DNA of 64,000 bases, from the NCBI GenBank assembly GCA_030680835.1, contig JAUXUD010000023.1, positions 1 to 64,000 on the forward strand, read 5' to 3'. The position numbers were made by a program, and so were the translations under genes. Positions 14,032 through 57,908 of this stretch are shown one piece after another (within the stretch, counting starts at the first letter, position 1; each line of letters opens with the position of its first letter). This stretch comes from Bacteroidota bacterium. GTDB taxonomy: Bacteria > Bacteroidota > Bacteroidia > UKL13-3. The notes under the pieces are model-generated. The model made no database searches, was not told the DNA's origin, and worked only from the letters and a program-made list of their open reading frames with translations.

Positions 14032-14069
14032 ACATCGTACATTGTACATCGTACATCGTACATTGTACA
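14032..14069. repeat. Heptamer tandem array (ACATYGT)x5
   Basis: Five consecutive 7-bp units (ACATCGT or ACATTGT) from 14032, with a sixth decaying unit. The array ends exactly at the stop codon (TTA, read as TAA) of the minus-strand gene that follows. It lies between two convergent genes. It belongs to a family of 7-bp arrays found elsewhere in this window. Confidence 0.85.
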
Positions 14070-14507
14070 TTACCCTCTTTTCCTGCTTTTCCTTTTCTCC
14101 TTCATTTCCTCCTTCAACTTCTCCTTTTCAGCCTTATAAATTGCCTGTTGTTCTGAATTTAAAATTTCCAATATTTCCTGATCGGCATTGTCCATTGCCT
14201 CCTTCATTATTTTCATTCGATCTTCCCGGCTTGCATCTGCAGGTAAGGCCATAATTTTACCTTTTGCCTCATCGGTATTTCTTTGTTTAATCTCTTTAAT
14301 TTTGGCAGCCTGTTCAGGGGCCAGGTTTAATTTTGCTTCAATTTCTGCTACCTTGGCTTTCATTTCTTCTCTTTTTTCCATCCTGGCTTTTCCTTTGGTA
14401 CTACTTGCATTTCCTGTGCTTTCAGGTAATTGTGCCAACATTTGGGTTGAGTACATTGTGAGTAAAGTGAATGCAATTACTCTTAAATAGTTTCCTGGGT
14501 TTTTCAT
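14070..14507 (-). CDS. Spy/CpxP-like periplasmic helical protein
   Basis: A 145-residue exported protein with a signal peptide to about residue 25 (TQMLAQ). The mature chain is a charged helical hairpin with an LNLAPEQAAKIKEI motif near residue 63 and ILNSEQQAIY near 117. These correspond to the L-x-L-x-x-x-Q repeats of Spy/CpxP-type periplasmic chaperone-like proteins, though with low identity. It ends in a long Lys/Glu/Arg tail. It lies alone, divergent from the polysaccharide export module 150 bp away, with a heptamer array right against its stop codon. A stress or metal role is a family-level guess. Confidence 0.8.
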   Translation of the reverse strand: MKNPGNYLRVIAFTLLTMYSTQMLAQLPESTGNASSTKGKARMEKREEMKAKVAEIEAKLNLAPEQAAKIKEIKQRNTDEAKGKIMALPADASREDRMKIMKEAMDNADQEILEILNSEQQAIYKAEKEKLKEEMKEKRKSRKRG

Positions 14508-14657
14508 AGTATTATTATTAATTGTTTGTTTGGTGGGCAGCTTAATAATTGGTTTATTCGAAGATAAAACTTTTTATTTAAGTTGTATATTAATTCATAC
14601 AATGAACTCAAACTCCTGTGGGTATCATAGATTTGACGAGGGTTTAAACTTGTATTT

Positions 14658-15536
14658 TTGACTTTGTTAAATAATAAAGTAAACCCATCATTGAAACGTT
14701 TTAATACATATGCTTCGATATGCCTTTTTGTATGTTGTTTTTTGCTGAACAATACCGGGATTAATGCGCAAAAACGGGGACGTGATTCATTGGTTTTTGA
14801 TGGAATCAGCATGGTTCCTTACTCGCAGATTCCGGTTGATACCATTTTGTTTAATCTGAGTGAAGACATAGGCAAACAAATGATACCCATTGATTCGTTA
14901 TTGGATTATGCGGTAAAATATTCCCCCCTTTTAAAAATGGAAGATGCAGGTGTTCAAAAGGCGCTCTATAATGTAAAATACACCCGTTACCTGTTTTTGA
15001 ATGGGTTTACAGGTTTCTTTAACTATACTTTTGGTGATCAAACCAATTTAAATTCGGTCAACAGTGATGGGAGTGTATTGAACAACAGTTTGGGTGTGGG
15101 TTACAGAGTAGGGGCCAATATCACCTTACCGCTGACAGAAATTTTTTCGAGGCCCTCGCGAATGAAACAATTAAAGGCGGAACATGACATGGCCAAATAC
15201 CATCGCATGGATGTTGAAATTGAAGTTCGGCGAAAAATTATTGCCGACTATTTTAATTTATTGGCGGCTCAAAAAATAGTAAACGTTCGTGTGCAGGACG
15301 CAGAAAGCGCCCGGCTTACAGTGGAAATTGCCAATATAGAAATGCGCAGGGGAAAAATTCCTCCCGAAGACTTATCGCGGGTTAAAAATATTTTAGCTAT
15401 TGCCGAATCAAACCTCGAAGCCTCAAAAAGAGATTTTATGGTTTACTATTACCAGCTTGAAACCATGATGGGAACAAAATTACATAATTTAAAGCGTGCG
15501 AAAACCATTGTAAAGCCAGCACTTAAAAAGAAATGA
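14658..15536 (+). CDS. Short TolC-family outer membrane protein of export module
   Basis: A 292-residue exported protein with an N-terminal hydrophobic segment (to about residue 37, GINAQ) and one TolC/OEP-type half: a Ser-Leu-Leu-Asp-Tyr-Ala helix start, a beta-hairpin region (FFNYTFGDQT ... GVGYRVGANITLPL) and a long coiled helical pair (YFNLLAAQKIVNVRVQDAESA). Full TolC proteins have two such halves in about 420 residues, so this is roughly one. It overlaps the Wzc-like gene by 4 bp, suggesting that it is the outer-membrane exit for polysaccharide in place of Wza (inference). No ATG fits; TTG at 14658 or 14664 is the likely start. Confidence 0.8.
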   Translation: MTLLNNKVNPSLKRFNTYASICLFVCCFLLNNTGINAQKRGRDSLVFDGISMVPYSQIPVDTILFNLSEDIGKQMIPIDSLLDYAVKYSPLLKMEDAGVQKALYNVKYTRYLFLNGFTGFFNYTFGDQTNLNSVNSDGSVLNNSLGVGYRVGANITLPLTEIFSRPSRMKQLKAEHDMAKYHRMDVEIEVRRKIIADYFNLLAAQKIVNVRVQDAESARLTVEIANIEMRRGKIPPEDLSRVKNILAIAESNLEASKRDFMVYYYQLETMMGTKLHNLKRAKTIVKPALKKK

Positions 15537-17743: not shown

Positions 17744-17763
17744 CCGGATAATTTAAATTTACC

Positions 17764-19263: not shown

Positions 19264-19288
19264 GCCGGGAAATTCTCATGCTTGTGTG

Positions 19289-19321
19289 ATTGATGATTAT
19301 TTTTAAATAATTTTATATTTG
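19289..19321 (+). promoter_or_regulatory. Bacteroidota-type promoter before TonB receptor
   Basis: TATATTTG at 19314-19321 matches the -7 consensus TAnnTTTG, and ATTG at 19289-19292 lies 21 bp upstream as a partial -33 element. The receptor ATG is only 5 bp beyond the -7 box, so the transcript would be leaderless or nearly so. Confidence 0.5.
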
Positions 19322-19326
19322 CGGCT

Positions 19327-21897: not shown

Positions 21898-21900
21898 TAT

Positions 21901-28588: not shown

Positions 28589-31270
28589 TTACTTATTTTT
28601 AAGCCCGTTCTTTAAACGCTGCTCTCCAAACTCCAGTATATGATCTATAAACTCATAAGGTTTATAATTGCTCAGCGCACATTGATGAAAAATTGCCGTA
28701 GCAGGCGTCATACCCGGCAATGAATTTACTTCTATAAAAACTACTTCAATTGCGTTTTTAGGGAGGATTCTTACAAAGGCATCGATGCGGCAATAGCCTT
28801 CAATTTTTAAAACTTTTGCAGCGGCTTTTAATTTTTCCTGAACCCTTGCGCTTATTTTTTTATTTAACAGGGGCGATGTCGCAAAGCGGGCAGGAGTAAT
28901 GTTTTGGCCTTGTCCGGCTAAAAACTTTTCTTCCAGACTTAATATTTCACCCTCTGCCAAAGTTTCGCTGGGCTCAAAAGTTTGATAGATTAATTTATTG
29001 CCTTTATAAGAAGTAAGCATTCCTCCGGTTACTTCTAAAAAATGTTTTGCTTTGCCTTTTTCTATAAATTTTTCTATCAAAAAATAGCTCTTAATCGGAA
29101 ACTCTTCTTTGGGCGATAACTTCAAACGTTCCCTTAAAAGCGCATCCATTTCTGTTTGTTTTCTGAAAACCCCATCGGCATAAGCGATCAATTGTACCCG
29201 GTTCTTAATTTTTTTTACGGCACTGCTGCAACCATCGTCAGCCGGTTTGGCGATTAATGGATAGCCGATTTTTTCAATTTTAGCGATGAGCGTTTGTTGA
29301 TTTTGTGCAAATTCTTTTTGCTGAACCAGCATATGTTCGGCAACCAGAAAGCCCTTTTTCCGGAGCAGTTCATTGGTATCGAATTTATTAATGGTTAGCT
29401 GCGAACTCGCTACATCAGAGCCGTTAAAGGGTAATTTTAATTTGTTTAATTCTTTTTGAACCGTACCATCTTCACCAGGCCGGCCATGCAAGGCAATAAA
29501 CACAATATCTGTTATTTTTTTAAGTTCAGCATAGGTAATTTTTTGGGGTTCAAACAATACAGAAGTGCTGTATTTTTCCAATATTCCCTTGCACTCCTCA
29601 ATAATCTTTTTCATGATGGGAACCTGGTGGTAATGCATCACCTTTTCGCGGATATCATCGGCATTGTCTTTTAACATTACATTAACCGGCAACAGGTACA
29701 ATTCATGGTGATCGTCGTCGCCGGTTACAAAAACAGGGAAGGGCTGGTACTTATCTGATGAAGCCAGTTTCTCATAAATATTTCTTCCGCTTTCAACCGA
29801 AATATGGCGTTCGGTGCTGTATCCGCCCATAAATACGGCAACCCGTTTTTTTGCCGCTTTTTTACTTTTGTTAATGGCCAGTTTGGCGTCGAGTTTTGCA
29901 AGCAAGTGTTTGAATGGATTATGGATACTCAGGCTTTGAATCCGTTCCCAAAGAGAAGTGCGGATGATATATGTTAAAAACTGCGATGGGTTCAGTCCGA
30001 TTTCTGCCGCCTGATGGAAGAAAAACGATGAGGGCATCATGCCTGAGGTGGTATTGGGATCATTCAAAAACAATTCACCGCTTTTACTTAAAAAACCATC
30101 AATGCGGGCATATACATGAAAGTTAAAAAAGGTAAATAAATGTTCACATGCAGTTCTTATTTCCTCAATTTTTTCTTCATTTAAATTTATGGGCGTAACC
30201 TTACGGCTCAGGCCCGGCAGGTATTTGCTACGGTAATCATAAACCTCTTGTCCTTTTACAATTTCGGTTGGAGGCAATGCCACTGCTGTACCATCTTCGT
30301 TACGCAAAACGATGCAGGAAAATTCTCTGCCATCAATAAACGATTCAATTAAACACTCGGTTTCACTATAGATGCTTTCGAGTTGCAGAATGATTTTTGT
30401 TTTAAATGCTTTATCCAGCAAGGCCCATAATTCATCGGGGTGATAATATATTTTACCATCACAAATGGCTGGCAAACCAATGCCTTCTTTTACATCGCAA
30501 ATCTTTTGAAGGAATTGAGTTTTCTCTGATTTCGATTTATTAATCCAATCTTTTTTGTTGATTACGTGTATAAAGAAAGCTTTTTTAACTGCTTCTTCAA
30601 ATGCAGCAAAATCATCTTTACTGATAACACTAACACCCACCGAACTTCCTTGATTGGCAGGCTTTACCACCAAAGGTAAGCCTACCTGCGTTTTGGCATC
30701 GGCAAAAATTTCTTTTAATTGACTGAGTTTGTTTTTTGAAAAAGCGTAATACTTTGGAACGTTTAAACCTGCTGCCTGCATCCATTGTTTTTGCAGTCGT
30801 TTGTTCATACCGATGGCACTAGGCAATATGCCCGAACCACTATATGGAATTCCCTGCCACTCGAGCAATCCCTGTATGGTTCCATCTTCACCAAAATTGC
30901 CGTGAAGTGCCAGAAATGCAAAATCAATATTCGACTTTAATTCTTCAGCAGGAATTATTTTTCCAATTTTTCGGGCCAGGGTTTTACCTTTATCTGCATA
31001 GGCAGTTTTGAGGTTTTCGGCATATACCTGAATCTCGTGTTTTGCCCCTTTTAAAAACTGTACGGATGGATAAAAATCGCGGATGGAACCCTTGTAGATA
31101 AAATGCCAGTCGAGCAGGACAAAGTTGTTAAAGCTATCCACAAAAATGGGTATGGCATCGAACATGCTTTTATCCAGATTATCATATACAGTACGTCCGC
31201 CTGCAAACGATACTTCACGCTCGCGGCTATTGCCTCCAAAAAATATCCCAATCCGGATTCGTTCACTCAT
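28589..31270 (-). CDS. Tandem double D-alanine--D-alanine ligase-like ATP-grasp protein
   Basis: An 893-residue protein made of two complete Ddl-like modules, residues about 1-465 and 474-893. Each begins with the Ddl hallmark (GGNSREREVS; GGYSTERHIS), followed by ALHGxxGEDGT and an ATP-grasp domain. Module 1 keeps QGSSVGVS, the omega-loop Tyr (YDYRSKYL) and YARID, but the metal site reads NDPN where Ddl has LEAN (Glu to Asp). Module 2 has RID and a canonical IEVN metal site, but the omega loop reads SLEEKFL with no Tyr and the Ser loop is GCSSAV. Ddl proteins are normally about 310-370 residues and single. It could supply D-Ala-D-Ala for peptidoglycan or make another dipeptide. No other cell-wall genes adjoin it. 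Confidence 0.85.
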   Translation of the reverse strand: MSERIRIGIFFGGNSREREVSFAGGRTVYDNLDKSMFDAIPIFVDSFNNFVLLDWHFIYKGSIRDFYPSVQFLKGAKHEIQVYAENLKTAYADKGKTLARKIGKIIPAEELKSNIDFAFLALHGNFGEDGTIQGLLEWQGIPYSGSGILPSAIGMNKRLQKQWMQAAGLNVPKYYAFSKNKLSQLKEIFADAKTQVGLPLVVKPANQGSSVGVSVISKDDFAAFEEAVKKAFFIHVINKKDWINKSKSEKTQFLQKICDVKEGIGLPAICDGKIYYHPDELWALLDKAFKTKIILQLESIYSETECLIESFIDGREFSCIVLRNEDGTAVALPPTEIVKGQEVYDYRSKYLPGLSRKVTPINLNEEKIEEIRTACEHLFTFFNFHVYARIDGFLSKSGELFLNDPNTTSGMMPSSFFFHQAAEIGLNPSQFLTYIIRTSLWERIQSLSIHNPFKHLLAKLDAKLAINKSKKAAKKRVAVFMGGYSTERHISVESGRNIYEKLASSDKYQPFPVFVTGDDDHHELYLLPVNVMLKDNADDIREKVMHYHQVPIMKKIIEECKGILEKYSTSVLFEPQKITYAELKKITDIVFIALHGRPGEDGTVQKELNKLKLPFNGSDVASSQLTINKFDTNELLRKKGFLVAEHMLVQQKEFAQNQQTLIAKIEKIGYPLIAKPADDGCSSAVKKIKNRVQLIAYADGVFRKQTEMDALLRERLKLSPKEEFPIKSYFLIEKFIEKGKAKHFLEVTGGMLTSYKGNKLIYQTFEPSETLAEGEILSLEEKFLAGQGQNITPARFATSPLLNKKISARVQEKLKAAAKVLKIEGYCRIDAFVRILPKNAIEVVFIEVNSLPGMTPATAIFHQCALSNYKPYEFIDHILEFGEQRLKNGLKNK

Positions 31271-31911: not shown

Positions 31912-32589
31912 CTAAAGTTTCCAGTTAACAGGTTCAATCCCATTTTCCACCAAATATGCATTGGCCTTGCTAAAATGGTGATTCTCCCAAAAACCATTGT
32001 GAGCCGAGAGGGGAGAGGGATGCGCGGATTTTAAAATAAGGTGTTTGCCGGCGTCAATAAAAACAGACTTACTTTGGGCAAAACTTCCCCATAAAATAAA
32101 TACCAGGTGTTCCCTTTGTTTCGAAAGTTGCCGGATTACCTCATCGGTAAAATCTTCCCAGCCTTTTTTTTGATGCGAACCGGCTTCTGCAGCCCTTACC
32201 GTTAAGGTTGCGTTCAGCAATAATACGCCTTGCTCCGTCCATTTGGTGAGATTGCCGCTTGGTGGAATTGTAAAGCCGGGAATATCGTTTTGCAACTCTT
32301 TAAAAATATTTTTTAATGATGGAGGAAAGGGAATGCCATCGTTTACAGAAAAGCACAGACCATGTGCTTGTTTTGGGCCGTGGTAGGGATCCTGACCTAA
32401 TATTACCACCTTTGTTTTATAGAATGGGGTATTGTTAAATGCAGCAAAAATTTGAGGTCCGGGTGGGTAAATTACCTTATGCTGCGCTTTTTCCTGAACC
32501 AAAAAAGATTTTAGATTTGCAAACGAAGGTTTTAAAAAGGCTTCATTCAAAATTTCTTTCCAGGAGGGTTCAATGTTAATTTCGCTCAT
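31912..32589 (-). CDS. ung: Uracil-DNA glycosylase, family 1
   Basis: A 225-residue base-excision repair enzyme that removes uracil from DNA. The water-activating motif GQDPYHGP (Asp67) and the leucine-loop motif [11 protein letters not shown] (His190) are both intact, and the length is normal. The frame is open further upstream, but ATG at 32589 gives the standard N-terminus ([14 protein letters not shown]). It is divergent from dapD with 43 bp between the two starts, a shared promoter region. Confidence 0.97.
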
Positions 32590-32632
32590 AATAATGTTTG
32601 TAAATATCCAATTTTGAATTGAATATTGCCAC

Positions 32633-33445
32633 ATGGAATTTCAACAAATAATTGAACAGGCCTGGGAACATAGGGAGCTGTTAAAAGACACCAAAACGCA
32701 GGATGCAATAAATGCCGTAATCGAGCAATTGGATAAGGGCATTATACGGGTAGCAGAGCCAACTGCAACCGGATGGAAAGTAAACGACTGGGTTAAAAAA
32801 GCGGTGATTCTTTATTTCCCGATTCGCAAAATGGAAACCATCGAAGTGGGCCCGATGGAGTTTCACGATAAAATGGCTTTGAAAAAAAATTATGCCGCAT
32901 TAGGGGTTCGTGTGGTACCACATGCCATTGCACGTTACGGTGCTTTTTTGGCTAAGGGAACTATTTTAATGCCAAGTTATGTAAATATAGGTGCCTATGT
33001 TGATGAAGGAACCCTGGTAGACACCTGGGCCACAGTGGGCAGTTGTGCTCAGATAGGTAAACATGTGCACTTAAGCGGAGGTGTGGGTATTGGTGGGGTA
33101 TTGGAACCGGTTCAGGCAGCTCCGGTAATTATTGAAGACAATTGTTTTATTGGTTCAAGATGTATTGTTGTAGAAGGTGTTCATATTGAACGCGAAGCTG
33201 TTTTGGGAGCGGGGGTAACGCTTACCATGAGTACAAAAATAATAGATGTTACAGGGCCTGAACCCAAAGAATACAAAGGCCGGGTTCCAAGCCGTTCGGT
33301 GGTAATTCCGGGAAGTTATACCAAACAATTTGCTGCAGGTTCTTTTCAGGTCCCATGTGCGTTAATTATAGGTGAACGCAAAGCCAGTACCGATTTAAAG
33401 ACTTCATTGAATAATGCACTCAGGGAATATGATGTAGCGGTTTGA
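32633..33445 (+). CDS. dapD: Tetrahydrodipicolinate N-succinyltransferase
   Basis: A 270-residue left-handed beta-helix enzyme that succinylates tetrahydrodipicolinate from succinyl-CoA in the DAP/lysine pathway, feeding peptidoglycan and lysine. Hexapeptide-repeat strands run from about 100 to 230 ([50 protein letters not shown]). The family-specific N-terminal helical domain is complete. It stands alone, with a heptamer array beginning 3 bp after its stop. Confidence 0.96.
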
Positions 33446-33447
33446 TT

Positions 33448-33496
33448 TACGATGTACGATATACAATGTACGATGTACGATGTAAAATATACAAAT
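33448..33496. repeat. Heptamer tandem array (TACGATG)x7
   Basis: Seven 7-bp units (TACGATG with variants TACGATA, TACAATG, TAAAATA) start near the dapD stop codon. The core TACGATG unit is close to the reverse complement of the ACATCGT unit at 14032-14069. Confidence 0.85.
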
Positions 33497-33510
33497 AATT
33501 CATTGTATAT

Positions 33511-33594
33511 AATTCATACTTCATAATTCAAAACTCATAACTCATAACTCATAACTCATAACTCATAACTCATAACTCATAACTCATAACTCAT
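33511..33594. repeat. Heptamer tandem array (AACTCAT)x12
   Basis: Twelve 7-bp units (mostly AACTCAT, first units AATTCAT, ACTTCAT, AATTCAA), ending 6 bp from the stop codon of the minus-strand DUF4290 gene. The near-perfect copies at the 33532-33594 end suggest recent expansion there. Confidence 0.9.
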
Positions 33595-33600
33595 AATTGG

Positions 33601-34320
33601 TTATGGATTGCGGCGTTTGAAATTCTTGTAGTTTGGATTGCCGCCGCTATTGCCTCCGCCACCGCGGTTACTTTTATATTTATTACTGCGGTTTTGGTTG
33701 CTGTTTCTGTAGTTGCCCGAATTGCCAAAACTATCGTCGGTAATGGGAGTTATGCGGCGCTGTTGCATGCTTTTAAACTGCAGGTCATCGCTTTCATTAA
33801 TCCGTATTTTACCACCGGTTAAAAATTCCAGATGCGCCATTACTTCTTCATCATTCAGCATCTCAGCGTTCCAGGCTTTACTGCTCATTTTCATAAATGA
33901 ACCAATGGCATTGATATATGCGGTACGAAACGGACCTTCTTCGAGCTCGGCCACTTTCTTTAAAATAGAAGCCACATTTTTTCCGTAAAACCTGAATTTT
34001 ATCGGCGACTGTGGATATTTCATCGGATCAGGCCGGGCCTTAATGGTTTCGGGTGATGGCACAGGATAGGGCGAGTCTACATCCAGTTTAAAATCACTCA
34101 TTACAAAAAGGTGATCCCATAACTTGTGTTTATAGTCAACCACATCGCGTAAATGCGGATTTAACTGACCCATTAATTTAATTATTTCGTTGGCAATGCG
34201 TTGGCGTTTCTCGCGGTCGGGCTCTGCAACTGCCACTTCAATCATTTTCTGAATGCAACGGCCATATTCAGAAATCAACAATTTACCTCTTTCGGTATTG
34301 TACTGTAAGCTTAATTCCAT
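33601..34320 (-). CDS. DUF4290 domain protein
   Basis: A 239-residue cytoplasmic protein specific to Bacteroidota. It has a helical N-terminal DUF4290 domain (MELSLQYNTERGKLLISEYG ... HLRDVVDYKHKLWDHLF ... PMKYPQSPIKFRFYGKNV, to about residue 180) and a disordered C-terminal tail rich in Asn, Ser, Arg and Gly (NRSNKYKSNRGGGGNSGG), which suggests RNA or nucleic-acid contact. Function unknown. ATG at 34320 gives the conserved family start; the frame remains open for 28 more codons upstream. Confidence 0.9.
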   Translation of the reverse strand: MELSLQYNTERGKLLISEYGRCIQKMIEVAVAEPDREKRQRIANEIIKLMGQLNPHLRDVVDYKHKLWDHLFVMSDFKLDVDSPYPVPSPETIKARPDPMKYPQSPIKFRFYGKNVASILKKVAELEEGPFRTAYINAIGSFMKMSSKAWNAEMLNDEEVMAHLEFLTGGKIRINESDDLQFKSMQQRRITPITDDSFGNSGNYRNSNQNRSNKYKSNRGGGGNSGGNPNYKNFKRRNP

Positions 34321-34441
34321 GTTTGTGCGTGCAAGATAAGTAATTAATTTGAAAAGTGGAAATTGTCCACCTTCGCTAAAGCTATGGTGGATAAAAGGGA
34401 GCAAATGTCTGAACTATGATTTATGTGATTTGTATGATTAA

Positions 34442-35291: not shown

Positions 35292-35319
35292 TTTCCTACT
35301 TCCTATTTCCTACTTTCTA
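35292..35319. repeat. Heptamer tandem array (YTTCCTA)x4 containing recN stop
   Basis: Four 7-bp units (TTTCCTA, CTTCCTA, TTTCCTA, CTTTCTA). The last three bases, CTA, are the recN stop codon (TAG on the minus strand), so the array runs into the end of the gene. Confidence 0.75.
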
Positions 35320-36981
35320 TTTTGTTCCCATCAACTCCTTAGCGGCGGCCAAAACTTTCTCAGAAGGATTTTCACCGCTGAGCATGCGGGCAATTTCTTC
35401 CACGCGCTCATTGGGTTCAAGCATTTTTATTTGTGTGCTGCTTTGCTTGCCTTCATCGTTTTTATATACGTAAAAATGTACATCGGCTTTGCCGGCAATC
35501 TGGGGTAAATGACTGATGGCTAAAACCTGGTGATTTTTTGCATGGGCTTTCATTACGGATGCTACGCGTTGCGCAGCTTCACCGGAGATTCCGCTGTCTA
35601 TTTCATCAAAAACAATAGTGGGTAAATGTACTTTATCGGCAATGAGTGATTTGATGCAAAGCATAAGCCGGCTGAGCTCTCCACCACTGGCAACTTTGTT
35701 CATGGGTTGCAAGGCAAATCCTTTGTTGGCACTAAACATAAAAGTAATTTCATCGCTTCCGTTTTCGTTCCATTTATCTTCGCTTAATAAATAATGAACC
35801 AACTGCAGGCGGGCATTGGGCATGGCTACCTGCTGTAACAGTTCATTTACTTTTTGTTCAATAGATGCAATGGCAGCAGTTCTCTTTTTGCTTAATGCCT
35901 GTGCACTTTTAATTAATAATTGATTTAGAATTTTCAATTCATCTCTGACTTCAGTAATAGCTGTTTCCAATGAACCCAACAACAAAAACTGCGCTTTAAA
36001 TTTTTCCTGAAGTGCAATGAGTTCTGTATTGCTATTAACCCTGTGTTTTTTTTGAAGCTGAACAATGAGTTGCAAGCGGTTTTCTATTTGTTGTAATGCC
36101 TGTGGGTCAATCAATGTTTTTTCGGCAATTAATAAAAGCTCGGCGGCAATATCTTTAATGTCAACAATATTACTCTCCAAACGGTTTTGCAGGGCTAAAA
36201 TTTGCGGATGGTGTTTGGCTGCGGCTGTCAAATTGCTTTTTGCTTCCCGCAAAATGTCTGCCACCGACTGTTCATTCCCTTCCAGTAAAGCGCTTACCTG
36301 GCCTGTTGCCTGTTGTATGATATCGGCATGACTTAACGAATCCATTTGCAATTCCAGCAAATCCTGTTCATCGTCTTTGGGTGCTAATTCATTGAGTTCA
36401 TTCAAAACAAAGCGTAAATAATCTTCGTCCTGTCTCGATTTTGTTTCGCGTTCAAGCAAACCCTTTAATTGTTTTTGTTTGTTGTTATGGTTTTGATAAC
36501 AATTTTTAAATGCTAATAATTCATGTTCCGTTTGTGCAATGGCATCCAAAACTTCCAACTGAAAATCAGCTTCATTTAATTCTAGGGTCTGATGTTGCGA
36601 AACAATATCAACCAATCTAAAACCAAGCTGTTTGAGGACTGGTAAATTAACGGGGGTATCATTGATAAAAGCCCGCGATTTGCCTGCTGCATTCACTTCA
36701 CGCCTTATAATGCAATTCAATTCATAATCCAGTTCATGGGCTTCAAAAAAATTCTGTAACTGATATTTTCCGATATCGAAAATTGCTTCTACCACACATT
36801 TATCTGCGCCTTGTAACAAGGTTTTACTATCTGCACGTTCTCCTAATATAAGTCCCAATGCGCCCATTAAAATCGATTTGCCGGCTCCTGTTTCACCCGT
36901 TATAATATTGAGTCCATTGCCAAAGCAAATCTCACTTTTAGAGATAATGGCGTAATTACTTATTTTTAAATTGAGCAGCAT
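35317..36981 (-). CDS. recN: DNA repair protein RecN
   Basis: A 554-residue SMC-like ATPase of double-strand break repair. Walker A GETGAGKS lies at residues 29-36, a long coiled-coil region spans about 150-370 and the C-terminal ABC half carries the signature GGELSRLML and Walker B TIVFDEIDSGISG. Length and layout are normal. ATG at 36981 gives the canonical start (MLLNLKISNYAII). It is transcribed in the same direction as the T9SS gene upstream, 80 bp away. Confidence 0.97.
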   Translation of the reverse strand: MLLNLKISNYAIISKSEICFGNGLNIITGETGAGKSILMGALGLILGERADSKTLLQGADKCVVEAIFDIGKYQLQNFFEAHELDYELNCIIRREVNAAGKSRAFINDTPVNLPVLKQLGFRLVDIVSQHQTLELNEADFQLEVLDAIAQTEHELLAFKNCYQNHNNKQKQLKGLLERETKSRQDEDYLRFVLNELNELAPKDDEQDLLELQMDSLSHADIIQQATGQVSALLEGNEQSVADILREAKSNLTAAAKHHPQILALQNRLESNIVDIKDIAAELLLIAEKTLIDPQALQQIENRLQLIVQLQKKHRVNSNTELIALQEKFKAQFLLLGSLETAITEVRDELKILNQLLIKSAQALSKKRTAAIASIEQKVNELLQQVAMPNARLQLVHYLLSEDKWNENGSDEITFMFSANKGFALQPMNKVASGGELSRLMLCIKSLIADKVHLPTIVFDEIDSGISGEAAQRVASVMKAHAKNHQVLAISHLPQIAGKADVHFYVYKNDEGKQSSTQIKMLEPNERVEEIARMLSGENPSEKVLAAAKELMGTK

Positions 36982-40735: not shown

Positions 40736-40784
40736 AATTCTTACCTCATACCTCATACCTCATAACTCATACCTCATAATTCTT
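40736..40784. repeat. Heptamer tandem array (ACCTCAT)x7
   Basis: Seven 7-bp units (ACCTCAT with AACTCAT and AATTCTT variants) that run directly into the stop codon (TTA at 40783-40785) of the minus-strand gene following. The unit is one base from the AACTCAT unit at 33511-33594. Confidence 0.85.
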
Positions 40785-41676
40785 ACTTACTCAAACTATA
40801 CATAATACCCAGACTTAATGTTTGAGCCAGCTGAACCTCCTTATCCATATCGTAATCACGGATTAAGTTAACAGTAACATTTGTGCTGATATATTTCGTG
40901 GCTTTTAAAATGAGATTTGCATTAATAATATGTACAAATGTATTGGGCTGACCCATATTTAAATAATCAAAGTTTACCATATACCTCCATTTAAAATTCA
41001 CATTGTGTGCTATGTCTTTATCGAAATTGATGATGTATTGAAAAACCAACTGATTTCTTAACTTATCTCCGGGCTTTTTTAAACCATAAAGCCCGGCATT
41101 TGAAATTTCTTTGTCCAAAACAAATGTTTGCCTCAGCGTTCCGGCTCCAAAGCGCATCCACAAATAACTTACAGGTTTGTATTCAATCCCCACAGAGCTT
41201 GTAAGATATGCAGGAGCTAAAAAATTTGAAATCAGTGAGTCTTTATTTGAATCTACGACGCTCTTTGTTTTAAAATCATAACCGGGTTTGAACTGGCTCA
41301 AAAAGTTAATGGAACCAAAGGCCGACCACTTTTCAGCAAGCCGTTTCCCCAATTTAAAATCATAGAAAATCCGGTCGGCATTTTTGCGTTGCAATTCCCC
41401 TTTTAACTGCAGATATCCCAGTTGCATTTGAAGATCACTGTTTACATCAAGATGAGTCGATTTATATTTTGCGAGGTAGTTAAAAAACCATCCCATTGCA
41501 TAACTGCTCACGCCTCCGCCTTTCCAGTTATCGCTGTAGCTGGCCTGATTTATATTAATTCCGGTTTGTATATCATGCTTCCATCTTGGGGCAACTATGC
41601 TGTCAATCTGAGCCGCACAAATACGGACGAAGATTAATAAAAGGGTTGAAAGGAGTATCTTTTTATTGTTTATCAT
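40783..41676 (-). CDS. DUF3078 outer-membrane beta-barrel-like protein
   Basis: A 297-residue exported protein with a signal peptide to about 22 (RICAAQ) and a DUF3078 body: WKHDIQTGININQASYSDNWKGGGVSSYA opening and alternating amphipathic strands ending in an aromatic residue region (TLSLGIMYSLSK). These are features of a small Bacteroidota outer-membrane barrel of unknown function. It is in tandem with the cysteine desulfurase gene, 52 bp downstream of it on the minus strand. Confidence 0.88.
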   Translation of the reverse strand: MINNKKILLSTLLLIFVRICAAQIDSIVAPRWKHDIQTGININQASYSDNWKGGGVSSYAMGWFFNYLAKYKSTHLDVNSDLQMQLGYLQLKGELQRKNADRIFYDFKLGKRLAEKWSAFGSINFLSQFKPGYDFKTKSVVDSNKDSLISNFLAPAYLTSSVGIEYKPVSYLWMRFGAGTLRQTFVLDKEISNAGLYGLKKPGDKLRNQLVFQYIINFDKDIAHNVNFKWRYMVNFDYLNMGQPNTFVHIINANLILKATKYISTNVTVNLIRDYDMDKEVQLAQTLSLGIMYSLSK

Positions 41677-43783: not shown

Positions 43784-43825
43784 CAAATTACAGATTATAA
43801 ATTACAGTTTGCAAATTAAGGTTTG
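43784..43825. repeat. Heptamer tandem array (CAAATTA)x6
   Basis: Six degenerate 7-bp units (CAAATTA, CAGATTA, TAAATTA, CAGTTTG, CAAATTA, AGGTTTG) between agmatinase and the 3' end of map, 31 bp from the map stop. This is weaker than the other arrays but has the same period. Confidence 0.6.
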
Positions 43826-43856: not shown

Positions 43857-44663
43857 CTAAAAAATCTCTTTGGGTATTTCAAACTCATGGTCAATATCAG
43901 TTAAAACCAGGGGTTTTTCTTTGGTAACACAAATGGTATGTTCAAACTGAGCCGAAAGTTTGCCATCTATGGTGCGAGCTGTCCAACCATCCTTTTTATC
44001 TACCTTACTTCTGGCTTTACCAGCATTAATCATGGGTTCAATGGTAAAAATCATGCCGGGTGCCAGTTTCGGACCCGAGTTTTTATCTGCCACATGGCTC
44101 ACTTCGGGTTCTTCATGAAATTTCAAACCCACTCCATGTCCGCAAAATTCATACACTACACTATATCCAAAAGAGGTTGCATATTTATTGATTTCGTAGC
44201 CAATATTTCCAAGGTAATTACCGGCTATGCTTTGTCTGATGCCAATTGCCAGACATTCTTTGGTAACCCTAATAAGTTTTTTTGCATGTTCACTGATTTC
44301 GCCAATGGCAAACATGGTAGAGGTATCTCCAAAGTAACCATTGAGTATGGTTGTAACATCCACATTTACAATATCTCCTTCACGCAGTTCATAGCTTCCG
44401 GGAATTCCGTGACAAATTACATCATTCACCGAAATACAGGTTTCTTTTGTATAACCGTGGTAACCGAGTGTTGCGGGAATTGCTTTATGATCACGTATAA
44501 AATCTGTGCATACTTTGTTTAAAAAACCGGTACTTACCCCCGGTTTTACGAATGGAATCACAGCTTTGAGGGTTTGAGCCGCCACAATGCTGCTTTTTTT
44601 AATTCCCTCAATCTGCTCGGGAGTTTTAATAATGATTTTGCTTTTGGTGTCTCTAAATGCCAA
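43857..44663 (-). CDS. map: Methionine aminopeptidase, type I
   Basis: A 268-residue metalloenzyme that removes N-terminal Met from new proteins. The five metal ligands are in place: Asp102, Asp113, His176, Glu209 and Glu241, plus the substrate His85 (VICHGIPG). The start codon is a TTG at 44663 (no ATG fits before the first helix, KTPEQIEGIKKSS). A TAnnTTTG site (CAAATGTA on the plus strand at 44683-44690) lies 20 bp upstream of it. It is divergent from the DUF6588 gene. Confidence 0.95.
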   Translation of the reverse strand: MAFRDTKSKIIIKTPEQIEGIKKSSIVAAQTLKAVIPFVKPGVSTGFLNKVCTDFIRDHKAIPATLGYHGYTKETCISVNDVICHGIPGSYELREGDIVNVDVTTILNGYFGDTSTMFAIGEISEHAKKLIRVTKECLAIGIRQSIAGNYLGNIGYEINKYATSFGYSVVYEFCGHGVGLKFHEEPEVSHVADKNSGPKLAPGMIFTIEPMINAGKARSKVDKKDGWTARTIDGKLSAQFEHTICVTKEKPLVLTDIDHEFEIPKEIF

Positions 44664-47268: not shown

Positions 47269-47296
47269 TTCGTAAATCGTAATCTGTAATTCGTAA
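47269..47296. repeat. Heptamer tandem array (WTCGTAA)x4
   Basis: Four 7-bp units (TTCGTAA, ATCGTAA, TCTGTAA, TTCGTAA) in the gap between the NlpC/P60 and peroxiredoxin genes, 65 bp after the NlpC/P60 stop and 29 bp before the next ATG. Confidence 0.65.
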
Positions 47297-47325: not shown

Positions 47326-47808
47326 ATGCAATTACAAAAAGGCGATAAAGCCCCTTCATTTAAATTAGTAGATACCGATAAAAAGGAAGTTTCTCTTGAG
47401 GACTATAAAGGCAAGACCCTGATTCTTCATTTTTTTCCGGCTGCATTTACCGGAACCTGCACCGCTCAATTGTGTGCAATTCGCGACGGAATAAGCATGT
47501 ACCACAACGATCATTGTGATGTTGCGGCAATTTCTGTTGATAGTGTCTTTACCCTGATAAAGTTTAAGGCAGATCAGAATTTAAATTTCACTCTGTTATC
47601 TGATTTTAACAAAACCGTATCCCCTGAGTATGGCGTTTTACTTGAAAATTTCACCCTTGGGATGAAAAATGTAAGCGGACGTTCCGTTTTTTTAATTGAT
47701 GGCAATGGCATTATTCAATATTCGCAAATTTTAGAAAAACAAGGTGATATGCCCGATTTCGCAGCTTTAAACTCAGCTTTAGCAGGTTTAACAGCCAGTA
47801 ATCAGTAG
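47326..47808 (+). CDS. Peroxiredoxin / redoxin (AhpC-TSA family)
   Basis: A 160-residue thioredoxin-fold peroxidase. The catalytic motif PxxxTxxC is present as PAAFTGTC with peroxidatic Cys45, and a second Cys50 lies one helical turn on (TCTAQLC). The resolving partner and reductant are not evident. It resembles AhpE/BCP-like peroxiredoxins that reduce H2O2 or organic peroxides. The stop codon is embedded in a GTAGAGA inverted-repeat element. Confidence 0.92.
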   Translation: MQLQKGDKAPSFKLVDTDKKEVSLEDYKGKTLILHFFPAAFTGTCTAQLCAIRDGISMYHNDHCDVAAISVDSVFTLIKFKADQNLNFTLLSDFNKTVSPEYGVLLENFTLGMKNVSGRSVFLIDGNGIIQYSQILEKQGDMPDFAALNSALAGLTASNQ

Positions 47809-48033: not shown

Positions 48034-48043
48034 CAAGTAAAAT

Positions 48044-51136: not shown

Positions 51137-51138
51137 AA

Positions 51139-52793: not shown

Positions 52794-52798
52794 TTTTA

Positions 52799-53686
52799 TT
52801 AAAACTTAACATCGGCATACATACCAATTTTTAAAAAACCATCATTTTTAACCCGTATTTTTATGGCATAAACCAGGTTGGCTCTTTCGTCTTTGGTTTG
52901 TATGGTTTTGGGAGTAAATTCTGCCTTATTGCTTATCCATTCAACGATACCCTTATATTCTTTAAATGTTCCATCCGGTTCATCAATCAATACACTTACC
53001 TGTTGATTCAGTTTGATTGAAGCAAGCTGCGCACCGCTTATATAAGCACGAAGTGTTATGGATGATAAATCTGCGATTTTATAAAGTGGTTTTCCGCTAA
53101 TGGCCATTTCATTTGCCTCCGCATATTTTGTCAATACAGTACCGTTTAGCGGATTTCTAACTATGCATTTGGCAAGCTGATCATTAATTTGCTCAATCTG
53201 AACATATAGGGGTAGCGTTTGCTGGTTAATACTTTCGGTACTTATTCCCAGGGTAGATTGATGTGCTTCCATTTGTTTTTTAATCAAATCAACCTGTGCA
53301 TTTATATCATCCATTTGCTTTTGCGTGGCTGCATCTGCTTTTAACAGATTCGAAACTCTTTTTTGTTCCGTTTCAAGTGCTTTTAACTGCGTCTTCATTA
53401 TGGCCAATTGCTTGTCAATATCGGGTTTCTGACTCAATGTAGTTTTAATCTGAGCGATGAGTTGTTTCTTTTTCAGATAAAGCTGCGTGCTGTCTATAAT
53501 TCCAATTGTTTCACCTGCTTTCAACACATTACCCTCGCTTATGTTAAATTGTTTTAGAATACCTGTAGCTTCAGATGAAACAATGGTTTCAACGGCTTCA
53601 AAAGTGCCAGAGGCATCATAGGTATTTTTATTTTTATTGCATGACAGCAACAATATAAGTGTGATTGGGATGATTAATCTATTCAT
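52799..53686 (-). CDS. HlyD-family membrane fusion lipoprotein (YbhG-like)
   Basis: A 295-residue periplasmic adaptor anchored as a lipoprotein: lipobox LLLSC with Cys16. It has biotinyl-lipoyl halves (ATGILKQFNISEGNVLKAGETIG and RNPLNGTVLTKYAEANE) that flank a coiled-coil hairpin (about 65-150), then a beta-barrel (AYISGAQLASIKLNQQVSVLID). It should bridge the two permeases to the TolC protein encoded just upstream. Confidence 0.93.
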   Translation of the reverse strand: MNRLIIPITLILLLSCNKNKNTYDASGTFEAVETIVSSEATGILKQFNISEGNVLKAGETIGIIDSTQLYLKKKQLIAQIKTTLSQKPDIDKQLAIMKTQLKALETEQKRVSNLLKADAATQKQMDDINAQVDLIKKQMEAHQSTLGISTESINQQTLPLYVQIEQINDQLAKCIVRNPLNGTVLTKYAEANEMAISGKPLYKIADLSSITLRAYISGAQLASIKLNQQVSVLIDEPDGTFKEYKGIVEWISNKAEFTPKTIQTKDERANLVYAIKIRVKNDGFLKIGMYADVKF

Positions 53687-53701
53687 ATCATTTAAGTTTT
53701 G

Positions 53702-54961: not shown

Positions 54962-55035
54962 TTGTGCATTTTTTTGACGATAATATTTTTATTACACAAA
55001 GAAACTAAGAAACAAAGTCTGCTTTTTTTATTTTT

Positions 55036-55075
55036 TAATCACCTATTTTAATCAAATGATTAAAATAGGTGATTA
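55036..55075. promoter_or_regulatory. Perfect 19-bp-arm inverted repeat upstream of efflux operon
   Basis: Arm TAATCACCTATTTTAATCA (55036-55054) and its exact reverse complement at 55057-55075 are separated by AA. No T run follows the stem on either strand, so it is not a standard terminator. It lies 75 bp upstream of the TolC start and 81 bp after the cyclophilin stop. A dimeric-regulator operator or a mobile-element remnant are the main options. Confidence 0.6.
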
Positions 55076-55156
55076 GCTGCATAATCAATTGGTTATCATT
55101 AATATAAAATTTGATTGTTTAACGCGTGCAGTGACCGCTAATAAAAAGAAAATCTC

Positions 55157-55762
55157 CTATGACGACAATTCTTTAAAAACCTTTTCGGCTTTAAATTTTT
55201 TGGCGGGTCTTCCTTTACGGATTATTTTTACATGAATAATTATATCGCCCTGCTGTATTGCATTAACAACATCCTGCCCGCTTACCACATGTCCGAATAT
55301 AGTATGCCTGTTATTTAGCCACGAAGTTTCCTTATGCGTTATAAAAAACTGGCTGCCATTGGTTGCAGGGCCCGAGTTTGCCATTGCTAAAATACCCGGA
55401 CCGGTAAAGCTTAGCTCTTTTAAAAATTCATCTTTAAAAGAATAACCGGGACCGCCCATTCCAGAGCCCTGGGGGTCACCCCCCTGAATCATAAAATCGG
55501 CAATAACCCTGTGAAATTTAAGGCCATCGTAAAATGGAACACCCTCGGCTTTGGCATTATTTTTTATTTTGCCTTCGGCCAGTCCTACAAAATTAGCTAC
55601 GGTTAAAGGGGTTTTTTCAAACTCCAGCATCAATAAAATTTTTCCTTTTGAAGTTTCAATTTCGGCATAAAGCCCTTTTTCCATTTTGGATTTCTTCCAA
55701 AATTGTGCCTGGCCACCAATAGCCATTAATAATAAAGTGAGTGCAATAAGTGATTTTTTCAT
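55157..55762 (-). CDS. Peptidyl-prolyl cis-trans isomerase, cyclophilin type
   Basis: A 201-residue exported cyclophilin that speeds proline isomerisation in folding outside the cytoplasm. Signal peptide to about 19 (GGQAQ); active-site motifs FHRVI ... [16 protein letters not shown] and the [13 protein letters not shown] segment with its Trp. ATG at 55762 begins the signal peptide; the frame is open for 20 more codons upstream without a signal-like sequence. Confidence 0.94.
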
Positions 55763-55988
55763 ATTCTGCCTGAATTCAATTTTTAAAAGGACGCTAATTA
55801 ATACAAAAAGGTTGTAATACAAAAAGGTTCTCCTTAAATGGGAGCGATTAAGATTTTAACCGGTAAAATAGTACCGTTTAAAAAACCTCAAAACATTGAA
55901 TATAGCCTTAAGTTTTATTTGAAATATATGAAAATAAAAAATTAATAACCAGAATATCAAATAAATATAAAAAATATATATAAATTAG

Positions 55989-56021
55989 TTTGCATTATAA
56001 ACTAATTTATAAATATATTTG
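55989..56021 (+). promoter_or_regulatory. Bacteroidota-type promoter
   Basis: TTTG at 55989-55992 and TATATTTG at 56014-56021 (TAnnTTTG) are separated by 21 bp, the best -33/-7 pair seen in the window. It lies in very AT-rich DNA. The T9SS gene starts 25 bp downstream. Confidence 0.65.
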
Positions 56022-56046
56022 TGCCGTCAAATTAATTTATAAAACC

Positions 56047-56943
56047 ATGAAAAAAATAAAATTAACCGTATTCAGTATTTTACTGACATTGGGCATGGCA
56101 AATGCTCAGCAACAAATTGCAAATGGTGGCTTCGAATTATGGGACACGATAGCCAATTATTCACAGCCTGAAAACTGGTACACTTTAAATCCGTTAAGCG
56201 TTTTTGGTTTTGAACCCAGCACAACCATTACCACAGATGCACAAAGTGGAAACTACGCGGTTGTGCTCGAATCGAAAGGAAACACATTTACCGATTATAC
56301 CGGTTTATTATGTTCGGGTCCAATTTTAGATGCAAATAATGACCCGGATTTTGAGCATATGAATATTAAGTTCAATGGAAGACCTACGCATGCCAGATTT
56401 TATTATAAATCGTTGCCTGAATTAAATGATACCTGCGTATTTATTATGGTGCTGCTTAAATGGAATGCTGTTTTAGGTAAAAATGATACCCTTGCACAAG
56501 CTTCTTTCTCAATGGGTGATTCTGTTGGAAGCTACACCTTGGCGAATGTCCCATTTGAATATTATTCAATGGCAACGCCCGATTCAGCTTATTATATTTT
56601 TAGTTCAAGCATTGATGGATTTAATCCGGTTGTGGGTAGCAAGTTTATTGTGGACGATTTTGAATTGGTATATTCGCCTTCAGGAATTGTAAACTTTGAC
56701 AAAAAATTAGAGGCTTCTGTTTATCCCAATCCATCATATAACGTATTAAATATAGATTTTGAGAATGAAAAAATGAGGAATATAGACATATACAACAGCC
56801 AGGGAAAATTACTTTTCTCAAAACAATTATTTTATGCCCATAATTTAGTGGAGCTTGATACTTTTGAAACCGGAATATATTTTATTTCTATCAGAGGGGA
56901 AAACAATGAAGAAAAACAGGTGAAGCTAATTATTCAAAACTAA
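56047..56943 (+). CDS. T9SS cargo protein with PCMD-like domain
   Basis: A 298-residue exported protein: signal peptide to about 18 (ANAQ), a jelly-roll-like domain with the opening GGFELWD and closing FIVDDFELVYS (compare GFEEW and YLDDLSL in the protein at 24443), and a T9SS sorting domain from about 220 (ASVYPNPSYNVLNIDF ... ETGIYFISIRG). ATG at 56047 begins the signal peptide. A carbohydrate-binding role is inferred from the fold family only. Confidence 0.88.
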   Translation: MKKIKLTVFSILLTLGMANAQQQIANGGFELWDTIANYSQPENWYTLNPLSVFGFEPSTTITTDAQSGNYAVVLESKGNTFTDYTGLLCSGPILDANNDPDFEHMNIKFNGRPTHARFYYKSLPELNDTCVFIMVLLKWNAVLGKNDTLAQASFSMGDSVGSYTLANVPFEYYSMATPDSAYYIFSSSIDGFNPVVGSKFIVDDFELVYSPSGIVNFDKKLEASVYPNPSYNVLNIDFENEKMRNIDIYNSQGKLLFSKQLFYAHNLVELDTFETGIYFISIRGENNEEKQVKLIIQN

Positions 56944-56954
56944 TTGACATTAAT

Positions 56955-57548
56955 ATGAAAATGGATGAAAAAGATGCACTGTTGTTAATTGAACAAATGA
57001 TTAACAATGCAAAAAAAGAATTGAAAGACAACGGCTTTTACTTTTTATTTTGGGGTTGGCTGGTTTTTATAGCCGCAATTACAAACTATTATTTGCTGAT
57101 GTTTACCGATTTTGAAATTCATAGTTTGCCCTGGATGATATTAATGCCATTTGGAGGAATTGTTACTTTTGTTTTATCGGCTAGGGAAAAGAAAAACACT
57201 CCCAGGGTAAAAACCTATGTTGATGAGATTCTGAAACAGGTTATTGCGGCTTTTGCCATTTCTTTGTTTACCATTTGTTTATTTATGCCCATAGGAGGGC
57301 AGTGGAAAGCATTTTATCCCTCTATTATGGTAATTTATTCGATATGGCTTTACATTTCGGGCGGGATGTTAAAATTTAAACCACTGATTTGGGGAGCCTT
57401 TTTAAACTGGATTTTGGCGGCAGTTGGATTTATTTACGCGTCAACCCAGGTTCATTTATTATTAATTGCCTTTGCTGTATTGGGTGGATTTATTATACCC
57501 GGATATTTACTAAAACAGAAATTTAACAGAAATGTTCAGGGAGCTTGA
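56955..57548 (+). CDS. Multi-pass membrane protein coupled to winged-helix regulator
   Basis: A 197-residue inner-membrane protein with about six hydrophobic helices and a charged N-terminus (DEKDALLLIEQMINNAKKEL). I recognise no family. It overlaps the following winged-helix regulator by 17 bp, which implies co-translation, so it may be the regulator's target or sensor. Starts at 56955 and 56961 are both possible. Confidence 0.8.
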   Translation: MKMDEKDALLLIEQMINNAKKELKDNGFYFLFWGWLVFIAAITNYYLLMFTDFEIHSLPWMILMPFGGIVTFVLSAREKKNTPRVKTYVDEILKQVIAAFAISLFTICLFMPIGGQWKAFYPSIMVIYSIWLYISGGMLKFKPLIWGAFLNWILAAVGFIYASTQVHLLLIAFAVLGGFIIPGYLLKQKFNRNVQGA

Positions 57549-57816
57549 TCCTATATTACATTCGCAATTAAGGTTGGCTGTGATGTCTCTTTTAATGAGC
57601 GTTGAAGAAGCTGAGTTCAATTTCCTGAAAGAGAAAACAGGTTCTACTTCAGGAAATCTCAGCGTGCAAATTGATAAACTGAAAAAGGCCGAATACATTA
57701 GTGTAACAAAATCATTCCGCGATAACTACCCCTTAACCATTTGCAAAAAAACAAAAAAGGGAATCGCTGCATTCGAAAATTATGTGGATTGCTTGAAGAA
57801 GTATTTGAATAGTTAA
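57532..57816 (+). CDS. Small winged-helix transcriptional regulator
   Basis: A 94-residue DNA-binding protein: LDPILHSQLRLAVMSLLMS opening, recognition-helix region TGSTSGNLSVQIDKLKKAEYI and wing SFRDNYPLTICKKTKKG. This is the ArsR/MarR-like single-domain winged helix (HTH_34/PF13601 type). It should bind DNA as a dimer. It is the second gene of a pair with the membrane protein. Its TAA stop lies inside the first unit of a heptamer array. Confidence 0.9.
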   Translation: MFRELDPILHSQLRLAVMSLLMSVEEAEFNFLKEKTGSTSGNLSVQIDKLKKAEYISVTKSFRDNYPLTICKKTKKGIAAFENYVDCLKKYLNS

Positions 57817-57908
57817 AAGTTAAAAGTTAATAGTTAAAAGTTAATAGTTGACGGTTGATGGTTAATAGACCATAACTTATTTACTATCGACTATGGACCA
57901 TCGACTTG
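57811..57908. repeat. Heptamer array with inverted second half
   Basis: Fourteen 7-bp steps: AGTTAAA/AGTTAAT x5, AGTTGAC, GGTTGAT, GGTTAAT, then AGACCAT, AACTTAT, TTACTAT, CGACTAT, GGACCAT, CGACTTG. The second half is largely the reverse complement of the GTTGA/GGTTGATGG-type units of the first, so the region can fold. The stop codon of the regulator (TAA 57814-57816) lies within the first unit. The convergent SBBP gene ends at 57926. Confidence 0.75.

Follow-up and report, generated by a model that had tools for sequence, protein, structure and literature searches.

The window analysed here, i.e. the whole 64,000-nucleotide stretch of DNA, comprises bases 1-64000 of contig C42 (JAUXUD010000023.1) in a 4.30-Mb draft genome of a Bacteroidota bacterium (G000 below), and its proteins fit that phylum (a weak SusC/RagA match, DUF4290 and a Por secretion tail). 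It contains eight tandem arrays of 7-nucleotide (nt) units, most of them at or very close to the stop codon of a gene. Most arrays in G000 come from two unit families, A (TACRATG, or ATGTACR in another phase) and B (TGAGKTA, or ATGAGKT), with minor families besides. The arrays of the window, and the open reading frames (ORFs) next to them, are:

14031..14071, minus strand: family A array, read as TACRATG on that strand; it overlaps the TAA (14070-14072) that ends ORF 14070-14507 of the same strand, for which there is no Pfam match
33444..33484, plus strand: family A array, starting inside the TGA stop (33443-33445) of gene 32633-33445
33509..33596, minus strand: family B array (TGAGTTA on the minus strand), 4 bp off the stop of the DUF4290 gene 33601-34404
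35292..35322, minus strand: weak array of GTAGGAA type that overlaps the stop of recN (35317-36981), a TAG at 35317-35319
40736..40784, minus strand: family B array (TGAGGTA/TGAGTTA) whose strong core, 40742-40778, is 4 bp away from where the DUF3078 gene (40783-41676) stops
43784..43825, no strand assigned: weak and degenerate 7-periodic stretch; the M24 peptidase gene 43857-44663 has its stop 31 bp away
47269..47296, no strand assigned: weak TTCGTAA-type stretch between the NlpC/P60 gene (stop 47203) and ORF 47326-47808
57811..57908, plus strand: AGTTAAW array including the TAA stop (57814-57816) of the HTH_34 gene 57532-57816

A 7-bp period had been proposed for all eight intervals in an earlier sequence-only reading, and each of them shows an excess of identity at lag 7 and none at lags 5, 6, 8 or 9. 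Lag-7 identity ranges from 0.57 to 0.94, compared with 0.21-0.45 for the best other lag of each interval. Five arrays are strong and turn up in two scans (14031-14071, 33444-33484, 33509-33596, 40742-40778 and 57811-57863). The three weak intervals, 35292-35319 (17/21 matches at lag 7), 43784-43825 (20/35) and 47269-47296 (15/21), score under the threshold of the genome-sample scan described below. Six of the eight lie at or within 6 bp of a stop, as had been claimed: 14070 (minus, TAA), 33445 (plus, TGA), 33601 (minus, TAA), 35317 (minus, recN, TAG), 40783 (minus, TAA) and 57816 (plus, TAA). The stretch at 47269-47296, found 65 bp past a stop and 29 bp before an ORF start, is closer to the start. 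The claim that the unit differs at each site was overstated. Since ACATYGT and TACGATG are reverse complements of each other and AACTCAT belongs with ACCTCAT to one family, four of the eight arrays fall in two families.

Several sites deserve a closer description. The arrays at 33444..33484 and 33509..33596 face each other inward, and the gene upstream of the first (32633-33445) carries tetrahydrodipicolinate N-succinyltransferase domains; its orthologue in a sister species stops at the same codon (TAA), without an array. The array at 40736..40784 takes up most of its 54-bp spacer. At the last site, the 7-nt register that starts at 57811 extends to 57908 through GTTGATG and CTATCGA-like units (63/91 at lag 7), and the preceding ORF is a real gene encoding a 94-aa winged-helix protein (HTH_34, E 3.4e-29).

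Period, position and strand in the genome sample

The sample covers 824,538 bp (19% of the genome) and is made up, with the window, of five complete contigs plus 160 kb from one more. Arrays were detected by self-match scans at periods 4-13, and genes were called with our own codon-usage script (527 in the sample). ORFs 31912-32634 and 57532-57816 escaped the script; because a missed gene pushes an array seemingly farther from a stop, the stop counts given below are probably conservative. The scans returned 62 arrays at period 7, 4 at period 6, 6 at period 8 and 2 each at periods 11 and 12, with none at periods 4, 5, 9, 10 or 13, and first-order Markov sequence returned no period-7 array. As tandem 7-nt units longer than chance and mostly intergenic, the G000 arrays have the properties of heptanucleotide long simple sequence repeats. 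Both the excess of period 7 over periods 6 and 8 and the enrichment at stops, on which the sequence-only reading depended, are present in the sample. Period 8 is the next most frequent, and a period-8 stretch, TCCTATCT, was seen by eye at C22 ~53190-53250 between a heptamer array and the opposite gene.

Placement was tested for the 54 arrays located in spacers. Eight of the 62 were left out: four near a contig or stretch end with no right-hand gene (one of them 4 bp past a stop), three that overlap the last 20-22 bp of a gene together with its stop, and one intragenic array. Thirty-three of the 54 lie within 6 bp of a stop, where random placement of each array in its own spacer gives a mean of 5.3 and a maximum of 13 (2000 trials); within 6 bp of a start there are 2, with a null mean of 2.8 and a maximum of 8. 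If arrays are placed at random in any spacer, the means are 1.1 (stop) and 1.2 (start). Attachment to gene 3' ends therefore exceeds what an intergenic location would produce. The spacers themselves are tandem for 31 arrays, convergent for 21 and divergent for 2, and for 3' ends next to spacers of 30 bp or more an array lies within 15 bp of 18/112 convergent and 19/265 tandem ends (p = 0.013). Altogether 37 of the 527 called genes (about 7%) have an array at their 3' boundary. Their stop usage is shifted, with TAA in 13/37 versus 333/527 of all genes and TGA or TAG in 24/37 versus 194/527 (p = 6e-4).

Could the arrays be neutral junk, tolerated wherever it does no harm? The rarity of arrays well inside called genes (1 of 62) and in divergent spacers would fit. 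However, tolerance predicts neither the fixed strand described below nor the position of arrays in long spacers. In five of the six array-holding spacers longer than 700 bp, an array is found within 24 bp of a stop: at no more than 2 bp in three of them (1126, 1421 and 772 bp), at 13 bp in a 947-bp spacer that holds two more arrays, and at 24 bp in one of 1935 bp; the sixth (2544 bp) has its array at 853 bp. We consider neutral tolerance improbable.

The arrays near stops also have a preferred direction. Of the 37 arrays no more than 15 bp from a stop, 35 are in sense orientation (ATGTACR/ATGAGKT on the coding strand), one is antisense and one is unclassified (p = 1e-9). The sense strand is G-rich, with a skew of +0.48 in stop-touching arrays versus +0.08 in coding sequence. 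Where a spacer holds several arrays (n = 11), these face inward in nine cases, point in the same direction in one and are unclassified in one, and none face outward. Five of the nine inward pairs sit between same-strand genes, so a convergent gene cannot account for the second array. The place and strand relative to genes are the same as for the GGGAATC repeats of Xanthomonas, for which G-quadruplexes have been proposed, and a quadruplex function could be supposed here as well. Yet the longest G or C run is one base in 36 of the 54 arrays, two in 17 and three in 1, short of what a three-tetrad structure needs, and this explanation is scarcely credible for G000.

At the junction with the gene, family A arrays mostly start with ATGTACR or TTTACGA and finish with RATGTA (by eye). 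Nine of the 23 family A arrays that touch a stop share two bases with it, the final pair of a TGA or TAA codon doubling as positions 1 and 2 of a unit (p = 0.003). One base further, the unit's C would turn the stop into CGA or CAA, and the array thus penetrates the gene maximally. TGAGTTA supplies stops in all frames and TACGATG in none, for which reason the supply of stop codons is rejected as a general function. With regard to phase variation, an array following the stop would leave the frame of that gene unshifted. Intrinsic transcription terminators were also rejected: a simple script found a GC-rich hairpin with a T-run after 2/34 array-bearing 3' ends and after 27/287 others. The scarcity of classic terminators leaves room for other modes of transcript ending.

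Unit families, relatives and the origin of the arrays

The two families recur at many sites. Three consecutive TACRATG units match 438 times genome-wide in G000 (overlapping matches counted), and a phylum set of 395 genomes yields some in 3 others. For the exact unit TACGATG, three copies in a row are found 137 times in G000 (overlaps counted), 7 times in G021 (another genus of the same family), once in G053 (same class) and not at all in 18 congeners. Family B (three TGAGKTA units) gives 172 matches in G000 and 1-6 in each of the congeners G004, G006 and G009 and in G027 (another genus), and so is not private to the G000 species. The view that the arrays cannot be one simple spreading element is not supported, as two families supply most of them, and copying between sites probably contributes. 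At a contig end (C15:119698-119921), three TACRATG arrays are split by ~30-bp CCTGCC...GGCAGG copies, forming a higher-order repeat.

G000 stands out among the sampled congeners. Its density of period-7 arrays is 75 per Mb (62 in 824,538 bp), followed by G427 with 60 (6 in 100 kb) and G021 with 41 (9 in 220 kb); the array-poor genomes have 11 (G014), 7 (G018, G008), 6 (G003) and 0 (G010, G005, G004), all from small counts. Period-7 arrays occur in 3 of 19 other Bacteroidota species, of which 4-20 kb each was covered. Among the matches listed for public contigs, many records from Bacteroidota and Akkermansia carry the exact TACGATG unit, as do a few from Chloroflexi, Patescibacteria, Desulfosporosinus, Chlorobiota and Gallionellaceae; almost all of these are metagenome bins that could be mis-binned, and the counts are lower bounds. 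These matches gave 99 stretches, all selected for the A unit that they contain, of which the 80 listed were analysed. The same selection applies to 5 of 16 stretches from G021 (L089-L093) and 1 of 6 from G427 (L153). These six are counted in the results on cores, hairpin arms, G-richer strands and lag-7 runs and are excluded from the densities.

For comparison at single sites, a search of the public contig collection with RecN found no relative. The sister species G018, whose RecN is 77% identical, provides a 146-kb contig with orthologues of many genes of the sample. Eight gene ends were compared, seven with strong arrays plus recN with its weak one, and within 400 bp of the G018 ends no period-7 array was found (0/8). 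Six of the eight orthologues, including that of the DUF3078 gene, end at the same codon, and the spacers of the two species have no visible similarity (by eye). The G018 contig does hold one period-7 array, of another unit (GATGGGA-like), again directly 3' of a stop.

For the array-rich genomes G021 and G427, the units are AGTAGTC, TTAATGG, TTTTCAG and others, and many arrays begin right after stops. Many are also arms of inverted repeats around cores like GCTGACGC...GCGTCAGC. In G427, 40 inverted repeats (arms of at least 18) were found in 120 kb, 26 of them within 15 bp of a stop, and arm identity at lag 7 is 0.46 versus 0.25-0.29 at lags 4-6 and 8-11; arms that are not visibly tandem therefore still carry a 7-nt beat. 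A fold z below -2 is found in 75% of the 28 G427 ends that face spacers of at least 120 bp. The corresponding figures for G021 are 28 inverted repeats in 312 kb and a lag-7 arm identity of 0.52 versus 0.17-0.33, and in each of five array-poor congeners 100-146 kb contains 0-3 such repeats. Over the loci examined in other genomes, the G-richer strand is sense at 40 stop-touching arrays and antisense at 15, with 3 ties (partly selected loci), or 23, 8 and 1 when scored by unit family, while at starts it is antisense in 8 and sense in 3.

The hairpins with heptamer arms suggest a mobile element, moved by a transposase and comparable to repetitive extragenic palindromic (REP) sequences or miniature inverted-repeat transposable elements, with the arms as its ends. 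The shared cores in G427 and G021 would favour such an element, as would the GTAG-tagged and other palindromes beside or within arrays. Against it, no conserved ends surround the A and B arrays beyond the unit itself (by eye, with no scripted search for target duplications), the core is unenriched in G000 (GCTGACGC occurs 7 times in 824 kb), and Y1_Tnp is present in all 10 genomes tested, array-rich or not. A mobile element is quite unlikely.

The palindromes are worth recording in their own right. The perfect palindrome CCCCGATAGCTATCGGGG has 17 exact copies in G000, among them C42:126856, C22:93182 and C5:137806; at the latter two it lies inside a heptamer array, a sign of later insertion. 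Palindromes of the form G(T/C)AGGGG....ATTGCAT....CCCC/GCCC follow the arrays at window position 14031 and at C22:63957, C22:92996 and C93:76640, with a GTAG tag in three of the four, and resemble REP elements. The loci L181-L257, from Akkermansia metagenome-assembled genomes (MAGs), present the TACGATG unit in a different organisation: arrays of ~4 units are embedded in a longer element with flanks like GCCTATGTACGA...TTTGGAAATTTAGCGC, mostly off called stops.

Does the period come from replication itself? The sequence-only reading had suggested a shared mechanism, either polymerase slippage with a 7-nt register or a template-driven process. Under pure slippage with an inherent register, an idea found also in Mrazek (2007, as cited in PMC4679880 and PMC4692102), any spacer could seed an array, and the register would follow from the ~7 nt that the polymerase contacts. 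Period 7 leads in every array-rich genome seen, 352 kb from the 19 other Bacteroidota species contains 6 arrays at period 7, 1 at period 8 and none at periods 4-6 or 9-12, and heptanucleotides are over-represented in many bacteria. However, an inherent register predicts 7-nt duplications in the congeners as well, and few are seen. The 142 kb of non-coding DNA of G000 holds 102 lag-7 runs of at least 9 versus 4.0 after shuffling, and 81 versus 0.3 for runs of at least 12; seven congeners pooled (162 kb non-coding) hold 8 versus 3.7 and 1 versus 0. The congeners may have a small lag-7 excess, and the array-rich lineages probably need something particular. Furthermore, slippage alone gives neither a shared unit at many sites nor the strand rule nor stop anchoring, and period 8 is not negligible in the loci of the Kiruna MAG (14 arrays versus 35 at period 7). 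An inherent register is thus disfavoured and slippage as the sole cause is unlikely, whereas slippage as a growth step may stand.

The template-driven alternative would be telomerase-like, a reverse transcriptase using a small RNA as template to extend an RATG primer. It would account for a constant period with variable units, for the RATG microhomology at junctions and for the fixed strand. However, the reverse transcriptase domain RVT_1 was not found (E 0.001) in the array-rich G021 and G427, no template RNA having been sought; among the 10 genomes tested it gives single hits in G000, in the array-poor G018 and G008 and, below the cut-off, in G014. This form of the proposal is very improbable. 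Repair genes were tried in the same genomes and rejected. SbcD is present in G000, G427 and the array-poor G018, G008, G010 and G005, and absent from the array-rich G021 and the array-poor G014, G003 and G004; MutS_V is present in 10/10 and hence does not match array richness. As only three genomes are array-rich, only a strong link to a gene (RVT_1, Y1, SbcD, MutS) could be detected.

The reading that we favour, if by a modest measure, sees the arrays as heptanucleotide repeats that dispersed in a lineage-specific burst and are anchored at the 3' ends of genes. Ectopic recombination or template switching would have carried copies of a few founder arrays to new 3' ends, perhaps by way of the RATG microhomology at stops. 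The copies would then have grown and shrunk in 7-nt steps by slippage, while those inside genes and in promoter regions would have been purged. The reason for keeping the fixed strand and the closeness to stops would be that the arrays have their effect, or their origin, where the transcription unit ends. They might even form a boundary that limits transcription leaving the gene or antisense transcription entering it. This last step is the weakest and we hold it to be doubtful, since the transcript effect reported for comparable repeats was measured against non-quadruplex repeats (Rehm et al., 2015), and the G000 units are of that kind.

Several observations weigh against this burst of copying and its link to transcript ends. 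The G018 orthologues of recN and of the DUF4290 gene stop 2 codons earlier and 19 codons later, respectively, and neither provides a same-codon end. Two families bear most of the strand statistic, and the sites are therefore not independent. For the Kiruna MAG the strand rule is weak (8 sense and 6 antisense among A arrays within 20 bp of a stop), for the loci from other phyla it is reversed (0 sense vs 4 antisense), and in the Akkermansia loci most arrays (85 of 94) lie away from both stops and starts. The inward pairs of G000 often set A against B, which are unable to pair. The 37 inverted repeats found in 824 kb of G000 have a faint arm beat (0.36 versus 0.25-0.34), and a fold z below -2 is found at 27% of 37 array 3' ends versus 15% of 80 others, a small gap on which a hairpin function in G000 was rejected. 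The preference of array genes for TGA and TAG is not clearly predicted by the model. The quadruplex contrast in the data of Rehm et al. (2015) does not favour the same transcript effect for the G000 units.

A broader alternative, which we regard as unlikely and give as speculation, is a process acquired by certain lineages, distinct from general slippage, that writes 7-nt steps at 3' ends with little regard to sequence. It would start at the stop, keep the G-richer strand sense and mirror itself into an inward partner, giving tandem arrays in G000 or near-perfect heptad hairpins in G427. The sporadic presence of heptamers in Bacteroidota, Akkermansia, Xanthomonas and cyanobacteria would then reflect the spread of the process. 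The contrast between one array-rich species and its array-poor sampled sisters allows the factor that makes or keeps the arrays to be sought by comparison. If the arrays of the favoured burst do act on transcription, about 7% of G000 genes would have a rewritten 3' boundary. Of the claims made from the window, the strict period and the 3' attachment have held; the strand rule, the inward pairs and the standing of G000 among its congeners had been overlooked.

Two further features of the window are unrelated to the arrays. The minus-strand gene at 28589-31270 encodes a protein of 893 aa that D-alanine--D-alanine ligase models hit in two separate parts (residues 6-232 with one model, 571-880 and 476-704 with others), probably two ligase halves in tandem. 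At 62773-63979, a 483-bp tandem repeat (2.5 copies, 87% matches) lies in a called minus-strand gene, 61495-65805, that runs past the window.

Comparison with known heptanucleotide repeats

Bacterial tandem repeats favour units of seven bases, and a heptanucleotide excess among prokaryotic long simple sequence repeats was noted in 2007 (Mrazek, 2007, as cited in PMC4679880 and PMC4692102; see also Mrazek and Huang, 2014, PMC4060949). The G000 arrays share this excess; stop anchoring and a strand rule are not described in the parts of that work covered. The kinship with heptameric repeats of cyanobacteria and other bacteria, suggested from the window, is borne out by the literature. The short tandemly repeated repetitive sequences of filamentous cyanobacteria are dispersed 7-nt units as in G000, with no positional grammar described in the parts covered, and three heptanucleotides in Calothrix are mentioned by Rehm et al. 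(2015, PMC4692102).

TAACTGA heptamers have been described in Beggiatoaceae, Cyanobacteria and Bacteroidetes (MacGregor, 2015, PMC4679880). They resemble the G000 arrays in being dispersed and sporadic by lineage, with mixed heptamers and some near relatives devoid of them. In the Orange Guaymas filament, however, they lie mostly just upstream of starts, whereas most G000 arrays lie just after stops and 2/54 come within 6 bp of a start. None of the dominant units in the 62 arrays is TAACTGA. Palindromes of the REP type tagged with GTAG or CGTC lie for the most part 3' of coding regions, frequently as opposed pairs, and many are plausibly transcribed (PMC3733652). They are 20-40 bp long and are not 7-nt tandem arrays, but similar ones adjoin some G000 arrays.

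The closest counterpart is the set of GGGAATC and GGGGA(C/T)T heptamers of Xanthomonas and Nostoc (Rehm et al., 2015, PMC4692102); two Xanthomonas genomes hold 186 and 183 arrays. These repeats are intergenic, on the coding strand near stops and on the non-coding strand upstream of starts, and are rare in divergent spacers; their closeness to or overlap with the stop is already known. They often form inward (inverted) pairs in Xanthomonas and few in Nostoc. Such repeats can coincide with transcript ends, as transcript starts and stops are enriched in quadruplex-forming repeats over non-forming controls. The G000 arrays share the 7-nt unit, the intergenic location, the coding strand near stops, the rarity in divergent spacers and the inward pairs. 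The same positional grammar is found for stops and divergent spacers in G000 and, in other genomes, for stops (40:15) and starts (8:3); in G000 itself, 4 arrays lie 15 bp or less from a start. Differently to the Xanthomonas repeats, the G000 units lack three-G tracts (53/54 arrays), so that the quadruplex class, which has G-tracts of at least 3 in consecutive units, is not represented. Several families coexist in one genome, arrays abut the gene within 6 bp using stop-codon bases, and none is found at the eight sister orthologues, whereas two Xanthomonas species share 83% of sites.

No report of stop-anchored TACGATG or TGAGTTA arrays was found in searches of an open-access library that lacks most subscription papers, which leaves their absence unproven. 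The positional and strand rule is known from Xanthomonas and Nostoc. As far as these searches show, what appears to be new is the set of units without G-tracts that obey it, the fixed-phase sharing of stop bases, the inward pairs of two families, the 7-nt beat in the hairpin arms of a second genome and the scarcity in congeners. The same place-and-strand rule in arrays without G-tracts argues against the quadruplex as a general explanation for the Xanthomonas and Nostoc repeats and points instead to something tied to the ends of genes.

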